Of a DNA stretch of 34,649 bases, positions 1,561 through 34,649 are shown in pieces. Source of the stretch: Pseudomonadota bacterium (GTDB taxonomy: Bacteria; Desulfobacterota; Desulfobulbia; Desulfobulbales; Desulfocapsaceae); contig JAHIUA010000056.1 in the NCBI GenBank assembly GCA_018817385.1, positions 1 to 34,649 on the forward strand, given 5' to 3'. The notes beneath the pieces are model-generated. The model had not been told where the DNA came from, ran no database searches, and saw only the letters and a program-made list of their open reading frames with translations. The translations under genes and the position numbers were made by a program. Within the stretch, counting starts at the first letter, position 1. Each line of letters opens with the position of its first letter.

Positions 1561-1649
1561 GAGTGGTATGCCGTTTGCTTTGACCTGTCTATATAGAGAA
1601 TTATGCATGAACAATGAAAGTTGGCAAAATCTCAAAGTGAATATTCTGG

Positions 1650-1794
1650 TTGCATCTCCACGGCCGGATGGAATCGCAGAGAAGTGGAAGAATCCAGGGG
1701 AAACCATGGAGGAGTCGTGGAAACGCCACCAGGAAATACTGCATCCCCAAGGGGAGGCCCAGGCAATTAACGTGGACGGCGGGTTTACTTGGCG
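1650..1794 (+). pseudogene. Relic of the 3' end of an acetoin reductase (SDR) gene
   Basis: This segment encodes EKWKNPGETMEESWKRHQ followed shortly by AINVDGGFT. It closely matches the C-terminus of the intact SDR at 27523-28308 (DKWKNPGETMDESWKRHQ and AINVDGGFT). Between GEAQ and AINVDGG it lacks about 21 codons (the PEDMGDLAVYF region) that are present in the intact copy. The catalytic Ser/Tyr/Lys part and the Rossmann N-terminus are absent. The frame runs on through a repeat element to 2137, but that longer ORF (1568-2137) is not a real protein. This is a second, decayed copy of the butanediol-pathway gene about 26 kb from the first. Confidence 0.8.
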
Positions 1795-1850
1795 CAAAAA
1801 GCAAAACCGTTTAATTTTGAGAAAGGTAAACCACGTTATAATCAATAAAA

Positions 1851-2018
1851 CTAGGAATCTGTCGGATTTAGAGAATCGTAGCGAAAATTTGAGAAATCGA
1901 GACCAGATTTTCATGGATTTGAGGCGAATAGCACGCCTATTTAACGAAAAGCCATGGAAATATGGGCCGATTTATCAAATTTGCAGCAGATTTATGTCTA
2001 AGTCCGACAGGCTCCTAG
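1851..2018. repeat. Repeat family 1, long copy with terminal inverted repeats
   Basis: A 168 bp element begins CTAGGAATCTGTCGGATTTA and ends with the complement of CTAGGAGCCTGTCGGACTTA, so its ends form a 20 bp inverted repeat with a few mismatches. CTAG occurs at both ends. Its interior from 1877 is nearly identical, in reverse orientation, to 34510-34649, and partly to 548-652. It encodes nothing and fits a MITE-like non-autonomous element. Confidence 0.8.
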
Positions 2019-2129
2019 GCAAGGAGGAAAAAGGCGTAATAGCATTGGGATCGTTTCTTGGATTTTGGCCAGGCCTGGCTTTCTGTACTATTTGGGCTGA
2101 CCTGCTTTTGTATACTATAAGGGGTAATT

Positions 2130-3278
2130 ATGTCTAGTTCATCCGAAGCAACAAGCATAAGCACTACTATCAGCGCAAAACCGTTTGGCCTGCAGTTGGG
2201 TGCAATCGGTTTTGCCATTGCGAGTTTTATTGTTATTCATGGAATAAGTTTAGTTGTCTGGAGACTGTTTGTGGATCCGCAAGTCGGTATCTGGAAATTT
2301 TATCCCCAGCCTTTTGGCGGGTATCTGTTTTGGGCGATTATGGTAGTCGTTTTTATCGGTTTTAATCTCGAAATGCATGGTTTTAGCAAGCTGAGCCAAC
2401 CCAAGGCGGGGATTGCCGCCACCGTGGTCACCCTGGCCCTCGGCATGACCATCCCCATGCTGCTGATCTACGGTTACGGTCGTCTGGACCCGGCGTTCAG
2501 TCCAGCCCAATACGCCGGGCACGGCGCCGCAGGCCTCATTGTGTTGATCGGTTTTTACGGGTTCGGCGTGGTGTCCAACAGCATGGACGGCTGGCCCTGG
2601 ACCGATGCCGGGATGCAGCAGCCCATGGTCGGCTTCGCGCAAATCTTTACCGGATTCTTCCTGACGTTAGTTGGTTATCTGGTCTTGATCTATCCCAACC
2701 TGGCCAGCTGGACCGGCCCGGACAGGGTCGTCATGGCGCTTCCCACGGCAATCGGCTGGTTTTATTCGGTCATCACCGCCTGGTTGACCACAGTCCTGGT
2801 TCTCGATCTCTGGCCTTACAGTACATTCAAGACCCGGGCAGGAAGGGCCATGGCTGCCTTCTTCGGCAACTTCGTGTTGGGTACTGTTGTCTACTTTATC
2901 CTTCTGTCCCTGTTGAAGAATGTGCTGATACCGGCGGAAGCCCTGGAGAAAATCGGGCCTGCCATCAACCTTTGGCCTGCACATCTCGGTGTCTGGATTG
3001 TTAACATCCTGCTTTTCTGGGCGTTGTGCTGCGGCAATGCCCCTACTTCCCTGAGCCCGGCCATGAACCGTGTTGCGAGATTCATTATCACCTGGACCTT
3101 AGGGATCGGTGCGTTTGTGATCTACATGAAATGGTTTGCCATTGGAGTTCTCAATGAAGCGGCAATCGTTCCCGGATTCGGCGGCGACCCCTTGACCTGG
3201 GTCGACCTTCTGAACCTAATCCTGTTATTTTATGTTGTGTATTTTGGTTCTTATGGATTGAACAAAAAAGAGAAATAG
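2130..3278 (+). CDS. Conserved multispanning membrane protein, function unknown
   Basis: The 382-residue protein starts at ATG 2130 behind AAGGGG (2119-2124), five bases upstream. After a Ser/Thr-rich N-terminus of about 18 residues, roughly nine to ten hydrophobic segments follow (for example around residues 25-47, 66-83, 93-115, 130-150, 169-190, 200-225, 243-265, 283-300, 315-335 and 355-375). This gives an integral inner-membrane protein. I do not recognise a transporter signature. Aromatic-rich loops (FYPQPFGG and GWPWTDAG) are conspicuous. It stands alone, 110 bp after repeat family 1 and followed by a hairpin at 3334-3364. Function should be left open; a transporter or membrane-subunit role is only a guess. 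Confidence 0.75.
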   Translation: MSSSSEATSISTTISAKPFGLQLGAIGFAIASFIVIHGISLVVWRLFVDPQVGIWKFYPQPFGGYLFWAIMVVVFIGFNLEMHGFSKLSQPKAGIAATVVTLALGMTIPMLLIYGYGRLDPAFSPAQYAGHGAAGLIVLIGFYGFGVVSNSMDGWPWTDAGMQQPMVGFAQIFTGFFLTLVGYLVLIYPNLASWTGPDRVVMALPTAIGWFYSVITAWLTTVLVLDLWPYSTFKTRAGRAMAAFFGNFVLGTVVYFILLSLLKNVLIPAEALEKIGPAINLWPAHLGVWIVNILLFWALCCGNAPTSLSPAMNRVARFIITWTLGIGAFVIYMKWFAIGVLNEAAIVPGFGGDPLTWVDLLNLILLFYVVYFGSYGLNKKEK

Positions 3279-3923: not shown

Positions 3924-4502
3924 TTACTGCATGATATTGCAGGAATTGGTTTCGCACCGCTTACCCTGGCAGCGAACAACCTTGTCGCTGACCGCTATCA
4001 AGATGTCCGTCAGCCGTCTTTCTCTCTGAGTCAGCTCTGAATCTGCAAAGGTGTTCCCATAGTAGGCATTGATGATTTGGGTCGAACTCATCGAAAGCGT
4101 CTCGAGAAACAAAGCGAGACTGCCGGACTGCAGATAGAGCGTTGCGTCGTTGACAAAAAGAATGTCCCGCCGCCGTCTTTTAAACTCTTCAAACAGCACT
4201 TCTATTTTACGTGCATTCTCGTTGGCCAGACGAAGTGTGTGTGCTGCATCCTTGCCCATGAGGCGGGGAGCAACAATGTTCGTCGTTAAATACAGAGCCG
4301 ACGTGCCCGATCCAAGGGACAGTTTCCCACCGATCCCTTGGACCGGGTCTGGGGACAGATCCAGAACTGCGATCTGCTGACCGTATCCGGCAGTTAAAAA
4401 ATGTTCCAGAATCAAGTTGGTCAGGGTGGTCTTGCCGGAGTTGATATCTCCGGCAATCATCGTCTGGCGGTTGAGATAGTGTTCGATGTCGCAATTCGTC
4501 AT
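3924..4502 (-). CDS. Small P-loop NTPase coupled to the Nramp-like transporter
   Basis: I place the start at ATG 4502-4500, which overlaps the transporter stop codon by one base (TGATG), giving 192 residues and likely translational coupling. A longer frame exists up to 4580 but would overlap the transporter. Near residues 17-26 is a Walker A motif, AGDINSGKTT, preceded by a hydrophobic strand. Around residues 48-60 the sequence VLDLSPDPVQGIGGKL recalls the Asp-rich loop after Walker A in Clp1/Grc3-like and related P-loop nucleotide-binding proteins. A later strand, RRDILFVND, could be a Walker B/sensor strand. There are no membrane segments, so it should be cytoplasmic. Shared transcription with a TPP-riboswitch-controlled transporter suggests a role in thiamine uptake or salvage (energiser, kinase or regulator), but the fold alone does not say which. 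The C-terminus is Cys-rich (four Cys in the last 20 residues). Confidence 0.75.
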   Translation of the reverse strand: MTNCDIEHYLNRQTMIAGDINSGKTTLTNLILEHFLTAGYGQQIAVLDLSPDPVQGIGGKLSLGSGTSALYLTTNIVAPRLMGKDAAHTLRLANENARKIEVLFEEFKRRRRDILFVNDATLYLQSGSLALFLETLSMSSTQIINAYYGNTFADSELTQRERRLTDILIAVSDKVVRCQGKRCETNSCNIMQ

Positions 4503-5764
4503 CACATGATCCCGAACTTTGTAAGGACAAACCGTATGGCCAGAAATGAGGTAACCAGAAACGTGAGGCCTCCCATGCAATTAAGGAGAAATGAATTTCG
4601 CAGCGTGCCATCCGACCTGTTCAGAAGGTAAAGAATGATTCCGATAATGAGGGGAGTACCGGTAAGGCCCAAAGCCAGCATCAGCGGGAGCAGTAAGAAA
4701 AAGCTGCCCTTTACGAAAGGACCAAGCATGCTCACCAGGCATCCTGCAAACACTGCTGCTGCAAAACGCTTATCTTTCACATCCAATTCCCAGCCCATCT
4801 TGTCTGAGAAAAAATAGGCCCCAGCCATAAAGGTGGGGGCAAGGGTGGATAAGGTGGCGCTCCAAAGACCGACCATAAAGATTTTCATGGCGCTGTCGCC
4901 CAAGAGGGGCTTGAGAGCCAGGGCAGCGTCCGTTGCCTTTTTCACGGCGATCCCGTTGGGGTGGAGCACTGCTGCTGCCACCAGAAAGATGGCCACACTG
5001 TAGAGTCCGAAGGCCAGCCCCATGGAAGAAAAAGTGTCGAAACGTGCCAGGGGCAGGTCTTTCAAATTCCATCCTCTGGCATTGGTATTGTAGGTGTGCA
5101 TCCCAATGATAGTGATATGAACCGCACCACCCATTATAGCCGCCATCATCAGAGCCGCGTCGATCCCTCCCGGAAGATTGGGAAGAAGCCCCTCAAGTAT
5201 ACCTGACATAGAGAGGTCAGCCATAAACAGCGTCACCACAAAACAAGCCACCACGAAAACCACCAGGAGTTTGCAGATGGTTTCAAATTTCCGGTATCCC
5301 TTACGCACCAGGAATACGGCGATCAGAATCCCGTACATCAGGCCCCAATAAGGGGTGTCAACACCGGTGACCAGAGAGGTTATCCCTGAAAGCGCGTTCA
5401 TCAGTATCATCGCCGCTAGCCAGGTTGCCAGGAGGGCATCAACTGTGAGGACCCATGCCCAACGCTTACCCAAGTGTTTTTCAGTGGCGGCGATAATGCC
5501 TAATCCTTCCAGGATTCCGACCCTGGCGGCCAGATACTGTGCGGTACTGCCAAATACCGCGCTAAGGATCACCACCCATAGCATTTTATAACCATACGTC
5601 GCACCGGCAATGGCAACACTGGCCAGGGTCGCCGGTCCACAGGCAACGGCGCTGATGATCCACGCTGGCCCCATCCCCTTGATATGCTCCCAGAGTTTTT
5701 TTGTCACATGATTCTCCCCTTCCTCAGCTCTGGGAGTATCGGGAATGGGTGCTCCGGTTTTCAT
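4502..5764 (-). CDS. Nramp-like transporter under a TPP riboswitch (candidate thiamine transporter)
   Basis: About 420 residues with 11 or so membrane segments; the Nramp fold is recognisable from the TM1 region ending AGATYGYKMLWVV. Aligned to MntH-type Nramps, the TM1 metal motif DPGN reads GPAT (residues about 43-46) and the TM6 motif MPH reads HIT (about 216-218), so the Asp, Asn and Met that bind Mn/Fe are all missing. I chose ATG 5764, behind the strong AAGGAG at 5771-5777; a TTG two codons upstream and a GTG near 5704 with its own GGGGAG are alternatives. The gene is first in a two-gene operon with the P-loop NTPase and lies about 115 bp downstream of a TPP riboswitch. Nramp proteins are proton-coupled divalent-metal importers. 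The lost ligands plus TPP control argue for an organic, thiamine-related substrate; this is inference. Confidence 0.85.
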   Translation of the reverse strand: MKTGAPIPDTPRAEEGENHVTKKLWEHIKGMGPAWIISAVACGPATLASVAIAGATYGYKMLWVVILSAVFGSTAQYLAARVGILEGLGIIAATEKHLGKRWAWVLTVDALLATWLAAMILMNALSGITSLVTGVDTPYWGLMYGILIAVFLVRKGYRKFETICKLLVVFVVACFVVTLFMADLSMSGILEGLLPNLPGGIDAALMMAAIMGGAVHITIIGMHTYNTNARGWNLKDLPLARFDTFSSMGLAFGLYSVAIFLVAAAVLHPNGIAVKKATDAALALKPLLGDSAMKIFMVGLWSATLSTLAPTFMAGAYFFSDKMGWELDVKDKRFAAAVFAGCLVSMLGPFVKGSFFLLLPLMLALGLTGTPLIIGIILYLLNRSDGTLRNSFLLNCMGGLTFLVTSFLAIRFVLTKFGIM

Positions 5765-5770
5765 GAACAA

Positions 5771-5824
5771 TCTCCTTTTTTATTACGTGCAGTGGTTCAC
5801 GACAATGGGGACTGACGAAGGAGA
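5771..5824 (-). promoter_or_regulatory. Candidate Shine-Dalgarno sequestering hairpin
   Basis: In the leader transcript, AAGGAGA at 5777-5771 (the transporter RBS) can pair with TCTCCTT at 5824-5818. The octamer GGAGATTG of the RBS region is repeated at 5880-5873, overlapping the 3' strand of riboswitch helix P1. A ligand-dependent switch between the two pairings is possible; this is inference from complementarity only. Confidence 0.4.
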
Positions 5825-5878
5825 CGGGGATGGCTTTGATGGTGCAGGAGAAAAAAATCCGGCGGGAAAAAGCAATCT

Positions 5879-5963
5879 CCGAGTTTCCTGCGACAGTATG
5901 AACTGTATCAGGTTCGATGGGTATAATCTCAGCCCCGCTCATAGTGCAGAACACCCCAATCGG
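5879..5963 (-). promoter_or_regulatory. TPP riboswitch (THI element)
   Basis: On the minus strand the conserved TPP aptamer blocks occur in order: GGGGTG near 5956, GGGGCTGAGA near 5936, ACCC then GAACCTGATACAG near 5915-5903, and GTTCATACTGTCGCAGGAAA at about 5904-5885. Ends CCGA and TCGG can close helix P1. CUGAGA and GAACCUGAU are the pyrimidine-sensing and core signatures, and CGCAGGAAA matches the pyrophosphate-side core. TPP-bound aptamers normally repress thiamine synthesis and transport genes. The next gene in the sense direction is the Nramp-like transporter, so it should be expressed when TPP is low. No clear terminator follows; translational control is more likely. Confidence 0.95.
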
Positions 5964-5972
5964 AATAAAGTT

Positions 5973-6917: not shown

Positions 6918-7700
6918 ATGAGCAAGCAAGAGCACTTAGTGAATGATCCTATTTTTTTCGACCACACTAACAAAACATTTGAAACCATTCCCTTTGCACC
7001 TGTTAAAGAAGAGCACCTGCAACCGTCACCTATTCCGCCTAATCCTGCAAAGGGCAGGGTCAAGAATAAAGCAGCTCAGAAAAAAGTCAAAAAAAAGGAT
7101 ACCCCAGGCAGTGCACGTGGCATCGAAACAATGTTCCGAACTGCTTATCGGTCACAGCTTGACCTGACTGCGCTTGCTGCAACGAAGGCCAATATCATGA
7201 TCTCATTGAACGGGATTATACTGTCGGTTCTGACACTCTCCGGGCCATTTGTGCTCGTTACTGAACCCATGTTCTCAGCCCCTATCGCTGTGTTTCTTGC
7301 CACATGCCTCTGTTCGATCATCTTTGCGGTGCTTTCGGCACAACCTTACTCCTTCAAGCGGAAGAGTACTGTTGACGATTTCAGGGACAACAACGCCAAT
7401 ATTCTGGTCTTTGAACATTTTTCTTCACTGGACAAAGACGAGCATTCAAAACTCATGTTCGGTTTAATGCGCAAGAATGAACGCATTTACCAGAACATGA
7501 CCTGGCAACTTTATTTGCTCGGAATAGCGGCAAATCGTAAGTTTCGCTTATTGAAAATCTCCTATACTTCCTTTTTGGTTGGTTTAACCGTGAGCACTTT
7601 AATGTTACTCATAGTGATTGTGATCTACCACACTATTGGCCTCACTGATTTAATGAATTCGTTACAATCCAGATTCAATCCACTCGATCCATCACGGTAG
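6918..7700 (+). CDS. PycTM/DUF5706-like membrane protein (Pycsar effector family)
   Basis: The 260-residue protein starts at ATG 6918 behind CAGGAG (6904-6909). Residues 1-70 are polar, Pro- and Lys-rich (KKVKKK) and probably disordered and cytoplasmic. From about residue 75 the pattern MFRTAYRSQLDLTALAATKA, then NIMISLNGIILSVL, matches the start of the DUF5706/PycTM domain, where a conserved Asp-Leu-Lys-Ala-Asn segment leads into TM1. TM1 is about 91-115, TM2 about 117-140 and a last TM about 218-242. In Pycsar phage defence, proteins of this family respond to cCMP/cUMP and damage the membrane. No pyrimidine cyclase gene is adjacent, so a defence role is not shown here. It is followed six bases later by the DUF3616-like gene, its likely operon partner. 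Confidence 0.75.
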   Translation: MSKQEHLVNDPIFFDHTNKTFETIPFAPVKEEHLQPSPIPPNPAKGRVKNKAAQKKVKKKDTPGSARGIETMFRTAYRSQLDLTALAATKANIMISLNGIILSVLTLSGPFVLVTEPMFSAPIAVFLATCLCSIIFAVLSAQPYSFKRKSTVDDFRDNNANILVFEHFSSLDKDEHSKLMFGLMRKNERIYQNMTWQLYLLGIAANRKFRLLKISYTSFLVGLTVSTLMLLIVIVIYHTIGLTDLMNSLQSRFNPLDPSR

Positions 7701-27522: not shown

Positions 27523-28308
27523 ATGTCATTACAACTAGAAGGCAAAGTAGCTATTGTAACGGGGGCTGGCCAAGGCCTCGGCGAAGGCATTGTAAAGCGG
27601 CTTGCCGAAGCGGGTTGCGACGTTGCGGTAATCGACATCAATCTTGAGAAAGCGGAAAAGGTAGCAGAGGATGTGAAGGTGATGGGGCGCCGGGCAGTTG
27701 CGATCCAGGCAGATGTGACCCAGTGGGACCAGGTTCAGAGCATGGTTGATCAAACCGTGGAAAAGCTCGGCAAACTCGACATCGCGGTGAACAACGCCGG
27801 TGTGATTAAAATCAAATCCGTCGCTGAATCGACGGCGGAAGACTGGGATTTTGTCCATAATGTCAACGCCAAAGGCGTTTTTCTCTGCTGTAAGGCTGAG
27901 CAAGAACCCATGAAAAAGCAGGGTTTTGGGCGAATCATCAATGTGTCGTCCATTGCCGGGAAAGTGGGGTTTCCTGATCTCTCCCTTTACACTTCCTCCA
28001 AGTTTGCAGTGGTGGGCTTCACTTTCTCGTTAGCCAAGGAACTTCAGCGGACCGGGATTACCGTTAACGCGATATGCCCTGGGATCATCGGAACGGGGAT
28101 GTGGTGCGGGCCGAATGGGCTTGCAGATAAATGGAAAAACCCTGGCGAAACCATGGACGAATCGTGGAAACGCCATCAGGATATCCTGATTCCTCAGGGG
28201 GAAGCCCAAACACCTGAGGATATGGGTGATCTGGCCGTCTATTTTGCCACTTCCAAACACGTCACCGCCCAGGCCATCAATGTGGATGGTGGGTTTACTT
28301 CAGCTTAA
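27523..28308 (+). CDS. SDR acetoin reductase / 2,3-butanediol dehydrogenase
   Basis: 261 residues from ATG 27523 (GGAG upstream at about 27510). NAD-binding motif TGAGQGLG at 14-21, the NNAG motif (AVNNAGV), catalytic Ser in NVSSIAG and YTSSK for Tyr-x3-Lys. The C-terminal TPEDMGDLAVYF and AINVDGGF segments are typical of classical SDRs. The lid region (GETMDESWKRHQ) is shared with acetoin reductases. It would oxidise 2,3-butanediol to acetoin, feeding AcoAB, or reduce acetoin. A deleted relic of the same gene is at 1650-1794. A 141 bp palindromic repeat starts directly after its stop. Confidence 0.88.
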   Translation: MSLQLEGKVAIVTGAGQGLGEGIVKRLAEAGCDVAVIDINLEKAEKVAEDVKVMGRRAVAIQADVTQWDQVQSMVDQTVEKLGKLDIAVNNAGVIKIKSVAESTAEDWDFVHNVNAKGVFLCCKAEQEPMKKQGFGRIINVSSIAGKVGFPDLSLYTSSKFAVVGFTFSLAKELQRTGITVNAICPGIIGTGMWCGPNGLADKWKNPGETMDESWKRHQDILIPQGEAQTPEDMGDLAVYFATSKHVTAQAINVDGGFTSA

Positions 28309-34509: not shown

Positions 34510-34649
34510 CTAGGAGCCTGTCGGACTTAGACATAAATCTGCTGCAAATTTGACAAATCGGCCCATATTTCCATAGATTTTCGTTAAATAGGCCTGCTAT
34601 TCGCCTCAAATCCATGAAAATCTGGTCTCGATTTCTCTAATTTTCGCTA
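34510..34649. repeat. Repeat family 1, third copy, cut by the window end
   Basis: It begins CTAGGAGCCTGTCGGACTTA and is nearly identical, in reverse, to 1877-2018, including ATGAAAATCTGGTCTCGATT. It lies about 25-35 bp upstream of lipB. Confidence 0.85.

Follow-up and report, generated by a model that had tools for sequence, protein, structure and literature searches.

A TPP riboswitch-linked Nramp-fold transporter and its P-loop NTPase partner as candidates for hydroxyethylthiazole salvage

The window analyzed here comprises 34,649 nucleotides (positions 1 to 34,649 of contig JAHIUA010000056.1, GenBank assembly GCA_018817385.1) from a bacterium of the Desulfocapsaceae in the phylum Desulfobacterota. 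On its minus strand lie, in this order, a thiamine pyrophosphate (TPP) riboswitch aptamer, a gene for an Nramp-fold transporter and a gene for a P-loop NTPase; the two genes and their proteins are termed T and N, respectively. An original prediction, made from the sequence alone, had proposed that T is an Nramp-fold transporter repurposed for thiamine, hydroxymethylpyrimidine (HMP) or thiazole, and that N is its partner as a kinase, energizer or regulator. Here T and N are examined as candidates for the import and phosphorylation of hydroxyethylthiazole (HET). The features are as follows.

5867..5968, minus strand: TPP riboswitch aptamer (RF00059); cmscan 66.9 bits against a gathering threshold of 54.3, model positions 1-105, full length
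4502..5764, minus strand: T, Nramp-related transporter of 420 amino acids, candidate hydroxyethylthiazole importer (PF01566, fold match, thiamine operons of relatives)
3924..4502, minus strand: N, P-loop NTPase of 192 amino acids, candidate non-homologous hydroxyethylthiazole kinase (TGATG overlap, family alignment, complementarity to ThiM)

The full-length RF00059 match confirmed the textbook aptamer described in the original prediction, whose interval of 3924-5963 covered both T and N but clipped the first bases of the aptamer, which reaches 5968. T probably starts at the ATG at 5764, 6 bases after AAGGAGA, and stops at 4504-4502. The ATG of N at 4502 overlaps the TGA of T (TGATG), as had been noted from the sequence, and N ends at 3924. 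Folds of five leaders disagreed, with no common expression platform. The source genome (5.38 Mb, listed as 100% complete) contained at least four TPP aptamers, that of the window included, with 150 of 279 candidates scored. Two of the others precede genes identified by profile matches as ThiG (C101) and ThiC (C82), while the fourth lies upstream of an open reading frame (ORF) resembling, by eye, an ATP-binding cassette (ABC) ATPase.

T belongs to the Nramp superfamily by sequence (PF01566, E 3e-75, Pfam) and by fold, the predicted structure (pLDDT 81) matching DraNramp 6d91 (TM 0.85). The MntH and Nramp models of NCBIfam scored below cut-off, and no NCBIfam model exceeded its cut-off for T. 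Alignment to DraNramp bore out the predicted replacement of DPGN by GPAT in transmembrane helix 1 (TM1) and of MPH by HIT in TM6. The tree and motif count of T comprised 53 rows, excluding duplicates and the T of L101, which is short and frame-broken; a signature of GP[AG][TS] ... H[IV]T was present in 48/48 rows of the T clade, DPGN...MPH in 2/2 MntH-like rows and neither pattern in three other Nramp-related rows. T thus lacks the DPGN and MPH motifs of a canonical Nramp metal transporter. The DxxG-TxxA/T signature of the NRMT magnesium transporters (PMC8806188) is also absent, the TM1 Asp being Gly in T.

A scan of species genomes detected 22 T loci at 60-90% identity, in records named Desulfopila, Desulfobulbus, Desulfogranum, Desulfocarbo and Desulfarculaceae and in loosely placed metagenome-assembled genomes. 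T was present in 16 of 395 genomes of a phylum sample (E ≤ 1e-60) and in 0/19 genomes of the same genus (E ≤ 1e-20), the latter indicating a patchy distribution. After removal of duplicates, 35 bacterial T loci remained, the window included, and were grouped by the presence of a TPP aptamer upstream of T or of its operon.

Aptamer present (17): window, L005-L008, L011, L012, L016, L021, L028-L030, L058, L059, L061-L063
No aptamer seen (14): L009, L010, L013-L015, L017-L019, L022, L024, L025, L053, L055, L057
Too little upstream sequence to judge (4): L020, L023, L026, L060

Weaker aptamers (E ≤ 1) were also absent from 11 loci (L009, L010, L013, L014, L017, L018, L020, L022, L024-L026); for L015, L019, L053, L055 and L057 the search used the gathering threshold alone. 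Of 34 resolvable loci, 30 had N 3′ of T at a distance of no more than about 1.1 kb, with one broken copy (L008). N was missing at L010, L012, L029 and L030, and the sequence of L021 ends too soon for N. As to how often homologues of the two proteins sit together and behind TPP riboswitches, a check put forward with the original prediction, pairing held in most loci and an aptamer preceded T or its operon in 17 of 35, more than chance would give. The broken N (L008:7197-7589) belongs to Desulfogranum mediterraneum, whose genome (G141, matched to L008 by contig sequence) has ThiM. In the T tree, 13 haloarchaeal rows formed one group and the 35 bacterial rows did not; the T of L030 had a long branch, being only 44-46% identical to that of the window.

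The neighbors of T were examined by Pfam scan. In the TPP-linked loci with neighbors, and in L023 and L060, these were mostly thiamine genes, namely a ThiD-ThiN fusion (ThiDN), ThiD, ThiC, TenA, TPK, ThiM, ABC/NMT1 (ThiXYZ-like) genes and PF02133 (CytX family), as in the following operons.

L016: TPP-thiDN-tenA-ABC-NMT1-T-N
L012: TPP-thiD-T
L030: TPP-thiM-T
L023: TPK-thiDN-..-NMT1-thiC-T-N
L062: TPP-T-N-thiDN-PF02133
L063: TPP-TPK-T-DUF2284-N-thiDN-PF02133

Seven loci (L016, L021, L023, L059, L060, L062 and L063) already contained an NMT1 or PF02133 gene. Table 1 of PMC6593275 lists CytX, ThiXYZ and YkoEDC for HMP and ThiW and ThiU for HET; with HMP-type genes already in place at these seven loci, HET was the remaining gap. 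At two TPP-linked loci, a gene for DUF2284 (PF10050, predicted metal-binding) separates T from N in the operon (L059:8098-8784 and L063:8623-9234).

In its family alignment, N shows the Walker A motif GDINSGKTT and, at a position resembling Walker B, an invariant ND. N had no Pfam match at E ≤ 0.01, that to PF02110 (ThiM) included, and N together with 16 relatives yielded a single match at this threshold (CbiA, 0.0058, in one protein). The predicted structure (pLDDT 91) gave weak matches to P-loop proteins, with CobU at the top of the list (E 2e-6, TM about 0.5) and KaiC, F1-ATPase, Rho and FlaH close behind. Such a predicted fold is compatible with a kinase but is no proof of one.

N was detected in 38 of the 395 phylum genomes, 16 of them T genomes. 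Of the 22 N genes outside the T set, 18 were examined with their surroundings, together with L096 and match coordinates. One of these N genomes (G067) had a short, frame-broken T after a TPP aptamer, and the N genes of G147 and G197 lay at contig ends. In 15 genomes N occurred without T beside ThiW, which was the next gene in 7 and in the same cluster in 8; ThiW is termed thiazole-specific in PMC5627462. CbiQ or two-domain ABC genes (Pfam) were present in six of the ThiW-N loci (L106-L109, L111 and L112). N adjoined a permease of the major facilitator superfamily (MFS) in 3 genomes and was one gene apart from such a permease in L115. A TPP aptamer was detected in 4 of 13 ThiW-N loci examined (L106-L108 and L111) and in none of four MFS-N loci. 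On an N tree of 56 rows (without the broken L008 copy and the fragments of L015 and L019 at contig ends), the partner labels needed 5 changes, the minimum possible being 3. The ThiW-linked N of L107 and a T-linked N from the same family (L059) formed a pair with support of 92/85, a branch not among the best supported. As N swaps its transporter yet stays with thiamine-precursor transport, it behaves like an enzyme acting on the imported compound. The MFS permeases beside or near N (L104, L110, L114 and L115) are candidates for further HET carriers; against NCBIfam, those of L104 and L110 resembled aromatic-acid/H+ symporters, far below cut-off. At L098:3669-6531, ThiW and N are clustered with a pyridoxal phosphate-dependent enzyme and a LarE sulfur transferase (TIGR00268, 334 bits), and a possible connection between sulfur transfer and thiazole salvage merits attention.

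Strong ThiM matches (PF02110, E ≤ 1e-25) were present in 101 of the 395 phylum genomes and ThiW in 28. Of these 28, 16 had N without ThiM and 12 had ThiM without N, while none had both and none had neither (Fisher 3.3e-8); the same split by taxonomic family was 4 versus 7, with no overlap (1/330). In 7 of the 12 ThiM-positive genomes, ThiM and ThiW shared a strand and were no more than 0.4 kb apart. Across all 395 genomes, ThiM was found in 4/38 N genomes versus 97/357 others (p 0.03). A converse swap was observed at L030, where thiM adjoins T and N is absent. Among T genomes, ThiM accompanied an absent or broken N in 4/4 cases versus 11/31 others (one of the 31 unresolved for N; p 0.026). As N and ThiM never coincided in the 28 ThiW genomes and one of them was always present, N appears to replace ThiM, the HET kinase, without being homologous to it, and T appears to be a stand-in for ThiW. 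N was also considered as a substitute for TPK, and this was rejected, TPK being rare in both ThiW groups (1/16 of the N group and 1/12 of the ThiM group) and not sharing the pattern.

Thiamine pathway genes were tallied in 35 T genomes (that of L010 not included), with matches of E 1e-40 or better in the match tables regarded as strong. ThiC was present in 26, once as a fragment. Strong ThiG was found in 9 (one partial; 18 in the tally at E ≤ 0.001), strong Thi4 in 14 (tally 35, the weak matches being mostly short pieces of the flavin adenine dinucleotide-binding end) and strong ThiM in 15 (one stop-broken; tally 21). TPK (PF04263) was detected in 7 and not in the other 28; five of the seven also carry N. 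No strong thiazole synthase was found in 12 genomes, 6 of which were also without ThiM and TPK. Two of these six, G139 (99% complete) and G111 (97%), have ThiC and ThiDN, leaving T and N as the sole candidates for supplying HET phosphate (HET-P) among the families searched, which did not include other thiamine kinases. The genome of the window contained ThiC twice and ThiG twice, with no strong ThiM or TPK.

The T-N pair extends to archaea. In a plasmid search, T had 41-45% identity to proteins of 15 haloarchaeal records, of which 13 were analyzed (two unannotated records were excluded) with flanks of 7 kb for six loci and 4 kb for seven. An N homologue (69-89 bits) was located behind T in 11 of these 13 annotated plasmid loci. 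TenA, which can yield HMP, lay inside the fetched stretch in 7/13. Genes linked to metals were observed near T at three loci. L067 has a superoxide dismutase close to T, L071 encodes an iron ABC transporter roughly 3 kb ahead of T, and in L120 T is followed at about 3.5 kb by a metal-dependent regulator. A more distant protein of the Nramp family (26% identity) adjoins hydantoinase/oxoprolinase genes, which fits PxpT (PMC13274462).

These findings place T and N, almost certainly, in the salvage of thiamine precursors. The best single reading, and on comparative grounds a probable one, is that T imports HET and that N phosphorylates it. From these comparisons we infer a direction of regulation, a substrate, a direction of transport and a kinase activity for N as follows. 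At low TPP the riboswitch would permit expression of the operon, while TPP would switch off both T and N. T, as a secondary transporter without metal ligands, would import 5-(2-hydroxyethyl)-4-methylthiazole or a close relative, for example its carboxylate. N would phosphorylate HET to HET-P, thereby trapping it, and HET-P would feed thiamine-phosphate synthase (the ThiN domain of ThiDN, or ThiE). The proposal of a repurposed Nramp-fold transporter with an NTPase partner is retained from comparative evidence (the missing metal ligands, the tie to thiamine salvage and the partner itself), with thiazole and a kinase fitting best; its option of an energizer or regulator is a poor fit, given that the transporters found with N are Nramp-like, ThiW/ECF (energy-coupling factor) and MFS alike. 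The further suggestion that the pair would feed the TPP-dependent AcoAB found no support beyond their lying in the same window, TPP serving many enzymes.

Several observations weigh against import and phosphorylation of HET by this pair. No TPP aptamer was seen at 14 of the 35 bacterial T loci, and in ten aptamer-less loci (L009, L010, L013, L014, L017, L022, L024, L025, L053 and L055) no thiamine gene occurred among the one or two neighbors scanned, which counts against a universal link of T to thiamine. Aptamers were similarly confined to 4/13 ThiW-N loci and 0/4 MFS-N loci. The specificity of ThiW for HET is itself a comparative prediction; N resembles CobU weakly (TM about 0.5), with scores almost as high for other RecA/KaiC-like folds. 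The genomes are related, so the test on 28 ThiW genomes overstates their independence; the swap at L030 concerns a divergent T (44-46% identity to that of the window); and N and ThiM occur together in 11/30 T genomes with N (one ThiM match stop-broken), so that there is no strict replacement there. TPK within the operons of L063, L021 and L023 would suit import of thiamine. Finally, with ThiC and ThiG the genome of the window should make thiazole itself, and there T-N would therefore be an economy measure rather than a need.

Import of thiamine by T, with N as a thiamine kinase yielding thiamine monophosphate (or TPP), would account for the TPK gene that immediately precedes T in L063 and for those within the T operons of L021 and L023. 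It would also suit the 28/35 T genomes without PF04263 TPK, in which imported thiamine needs another kinase (other thiamine kinase families were not searched). This explanation is unlikely, as the complementarity of N is to ThiM while TPK is rare in both ThiW groups, N adjoins ThiW, which PMC6593275 lists for HET, and five of the seven TPK-bearing T genomes carry N as well. Import of HMP or an HMP precursor is less likely still, and indeed very improbable. ThiD or ThiDN occurs in many operons and TenA, a possible source of HMP, lies near T in haloarchaea and in L016, but ThiC is present in 26/35 T genomes (one a fragment) and HMP requires ThiD, not a second kinase. Moreover, seven loci already have the CytX-family or ThiXYZ-like genes listed for HMP in PMC6593275.

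The Nramp fold, the report that YcsG raises cell Mn (PMC10448178, PMC12873925), strong Thi4 in 14/35 T genomes and the metal-linked genes of L067, L071 and L120 would be consistent with T still importing a metal, whether Fe2+, Mn2+ or Mg2+, for thiamine enzymes such as ThiC (Fe-S), Thi4 (Fe) or the kinases. We consider this improbable. The metal-site Asp, Asn and Met are replaced by Gly, Thr or Ser, and His in 48/48 T rows, and no metal riboswitch was found beside T. Homologues consistently placed behind Fe/Mn regulators had been named as evidence against the original prediction, and no metal regulator was found among the bacterial neighbors scanned (Pfam). Metal import also leaves unexplained both the sharing of N with ThiW and MFS permeases and the complementarity of N and ThiM. 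That same mutual exclusion among ThiW genomes argues against N energizing or regulating the transporter without acting on the substrate, a role to which we give a similarly small chance in spite of the start of N inside the stop of T, its ATP-binding motifs and conservation of the pair across domains. N accompanies secondary transporters (Nramp-like and MFS) and clusters already equipped with ECF-type ABC ATPases and CbiQ, and the T genes of L010, L012, L029 and L030 are without N.

A wider reading, which we hold with slightly less assurance but still favor, is that N founds a P-loop HET kinase family unrelated to ThiM and common to three unrelated transporter types, that T carries a vitamin precursor by means of an Nramp fold, and that both halves of ThiW-ThiM have non-homologous substitutes in Desulfobacterota and haloarchaea. 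Among the matches listed in a search of the open-licence literature, no paper title joined Nramp with thiamine or thiazole transport and none concerned a second HET kinase. The proposed roles give a testable function to two families that haloarchaeal records label "divalent metal cation transporter" and "hypothetical protein". ThiW was found in only 64% of predicted HET auxotrophs in a gut set (PMC6593275), and T-N may fill part of this HET-transporter gap. Nramp-related groups besides NRMT-like and MntG are called uncharacterized in PMC12873925; a role of T in HET import would add a vitamin precursor to Nramp-fold substrates and would change predictions of thiamine prototrophy and cross-feeding for sulfate reducers and haloarchaea.

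Other features of the window were recorded. A Group II intron match (D1-D4-6, RF02005, 69 bits) lies at 493-756 on the minus strand, and a 48-nucleotide stretch of it (549-596) is repeated at 34511-34558 with 92% identity. An ORF at 1568-2137 (plus strand) is an apparent decayed copy of the C-terminal part of a gene at 27523-28308, on the basis of 100 nucleotides at 80% identity; this gene resembles, by eye, a short-chain dehydrogenase/reductase. A 40-nucleotide repeat has four copies (3514, 6158, 9351 and 19520), the others being 70-90% identical to the reference copy, and one copy is situated behind N. At 6918-7700 (plus strand), a PycTM-domain gene (PF18967 Pycsar effector, 71 bits) adjoins a gene matching DUF3616 and a phytase-like family.

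Among known systems, T shares its fold with canonical Nramp/MntH proteins (DraNramp and BfraNramp) and EleNRMT, with TM scores of 0.66-0.85 for the Nramp entries listed, but has GPAT and HIT where the canonical proteins have DPGN and MPH and, by alignment, is without the NRMT signature of the magnesium transporter EleNRMT. PxpT/YcsG, Nramp-family proteins linked to 5-oxoproline uptake, provide a parallel in that the operons of these Nramp-related proteins suggest an organic substrate (PMC13274462). The fold matches of T include an integrative model of YcsG (9a52; TM 0.83, 16% identity), but T has no oxoprolinase gene beside it, none having been found among the T neighbors scanned or annotated beside the 13 haloarchaeal T genes. 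The function of YcsG is itself disputed, PMC10448178 concluding Mn import, and YcsG is assigned to a G-motif group of Nramp-related proteins (PMC10448178, PMC12873925). For N, the nearest solved fold is CobU (adenosylcobinamide kinase/guanylyltransferase), likewise a vitamin-salvage kinase; the match is weak, with ≤17% identity among the CobU rows and no Pfam CobU match. A further close counterpart is ThiW with ThiM, a predicted HET transporter and a HET kinase. In both systems transporter and partner gene are adjacent, N occupies the place of ThiM beside ThiW, and ThiM that of N beside the one divergent T of L030. The two differ in their proteins, ThiW being an ECF S-component and T having an Nramp fold, and N being a P-loop protein without a PF02110 match.

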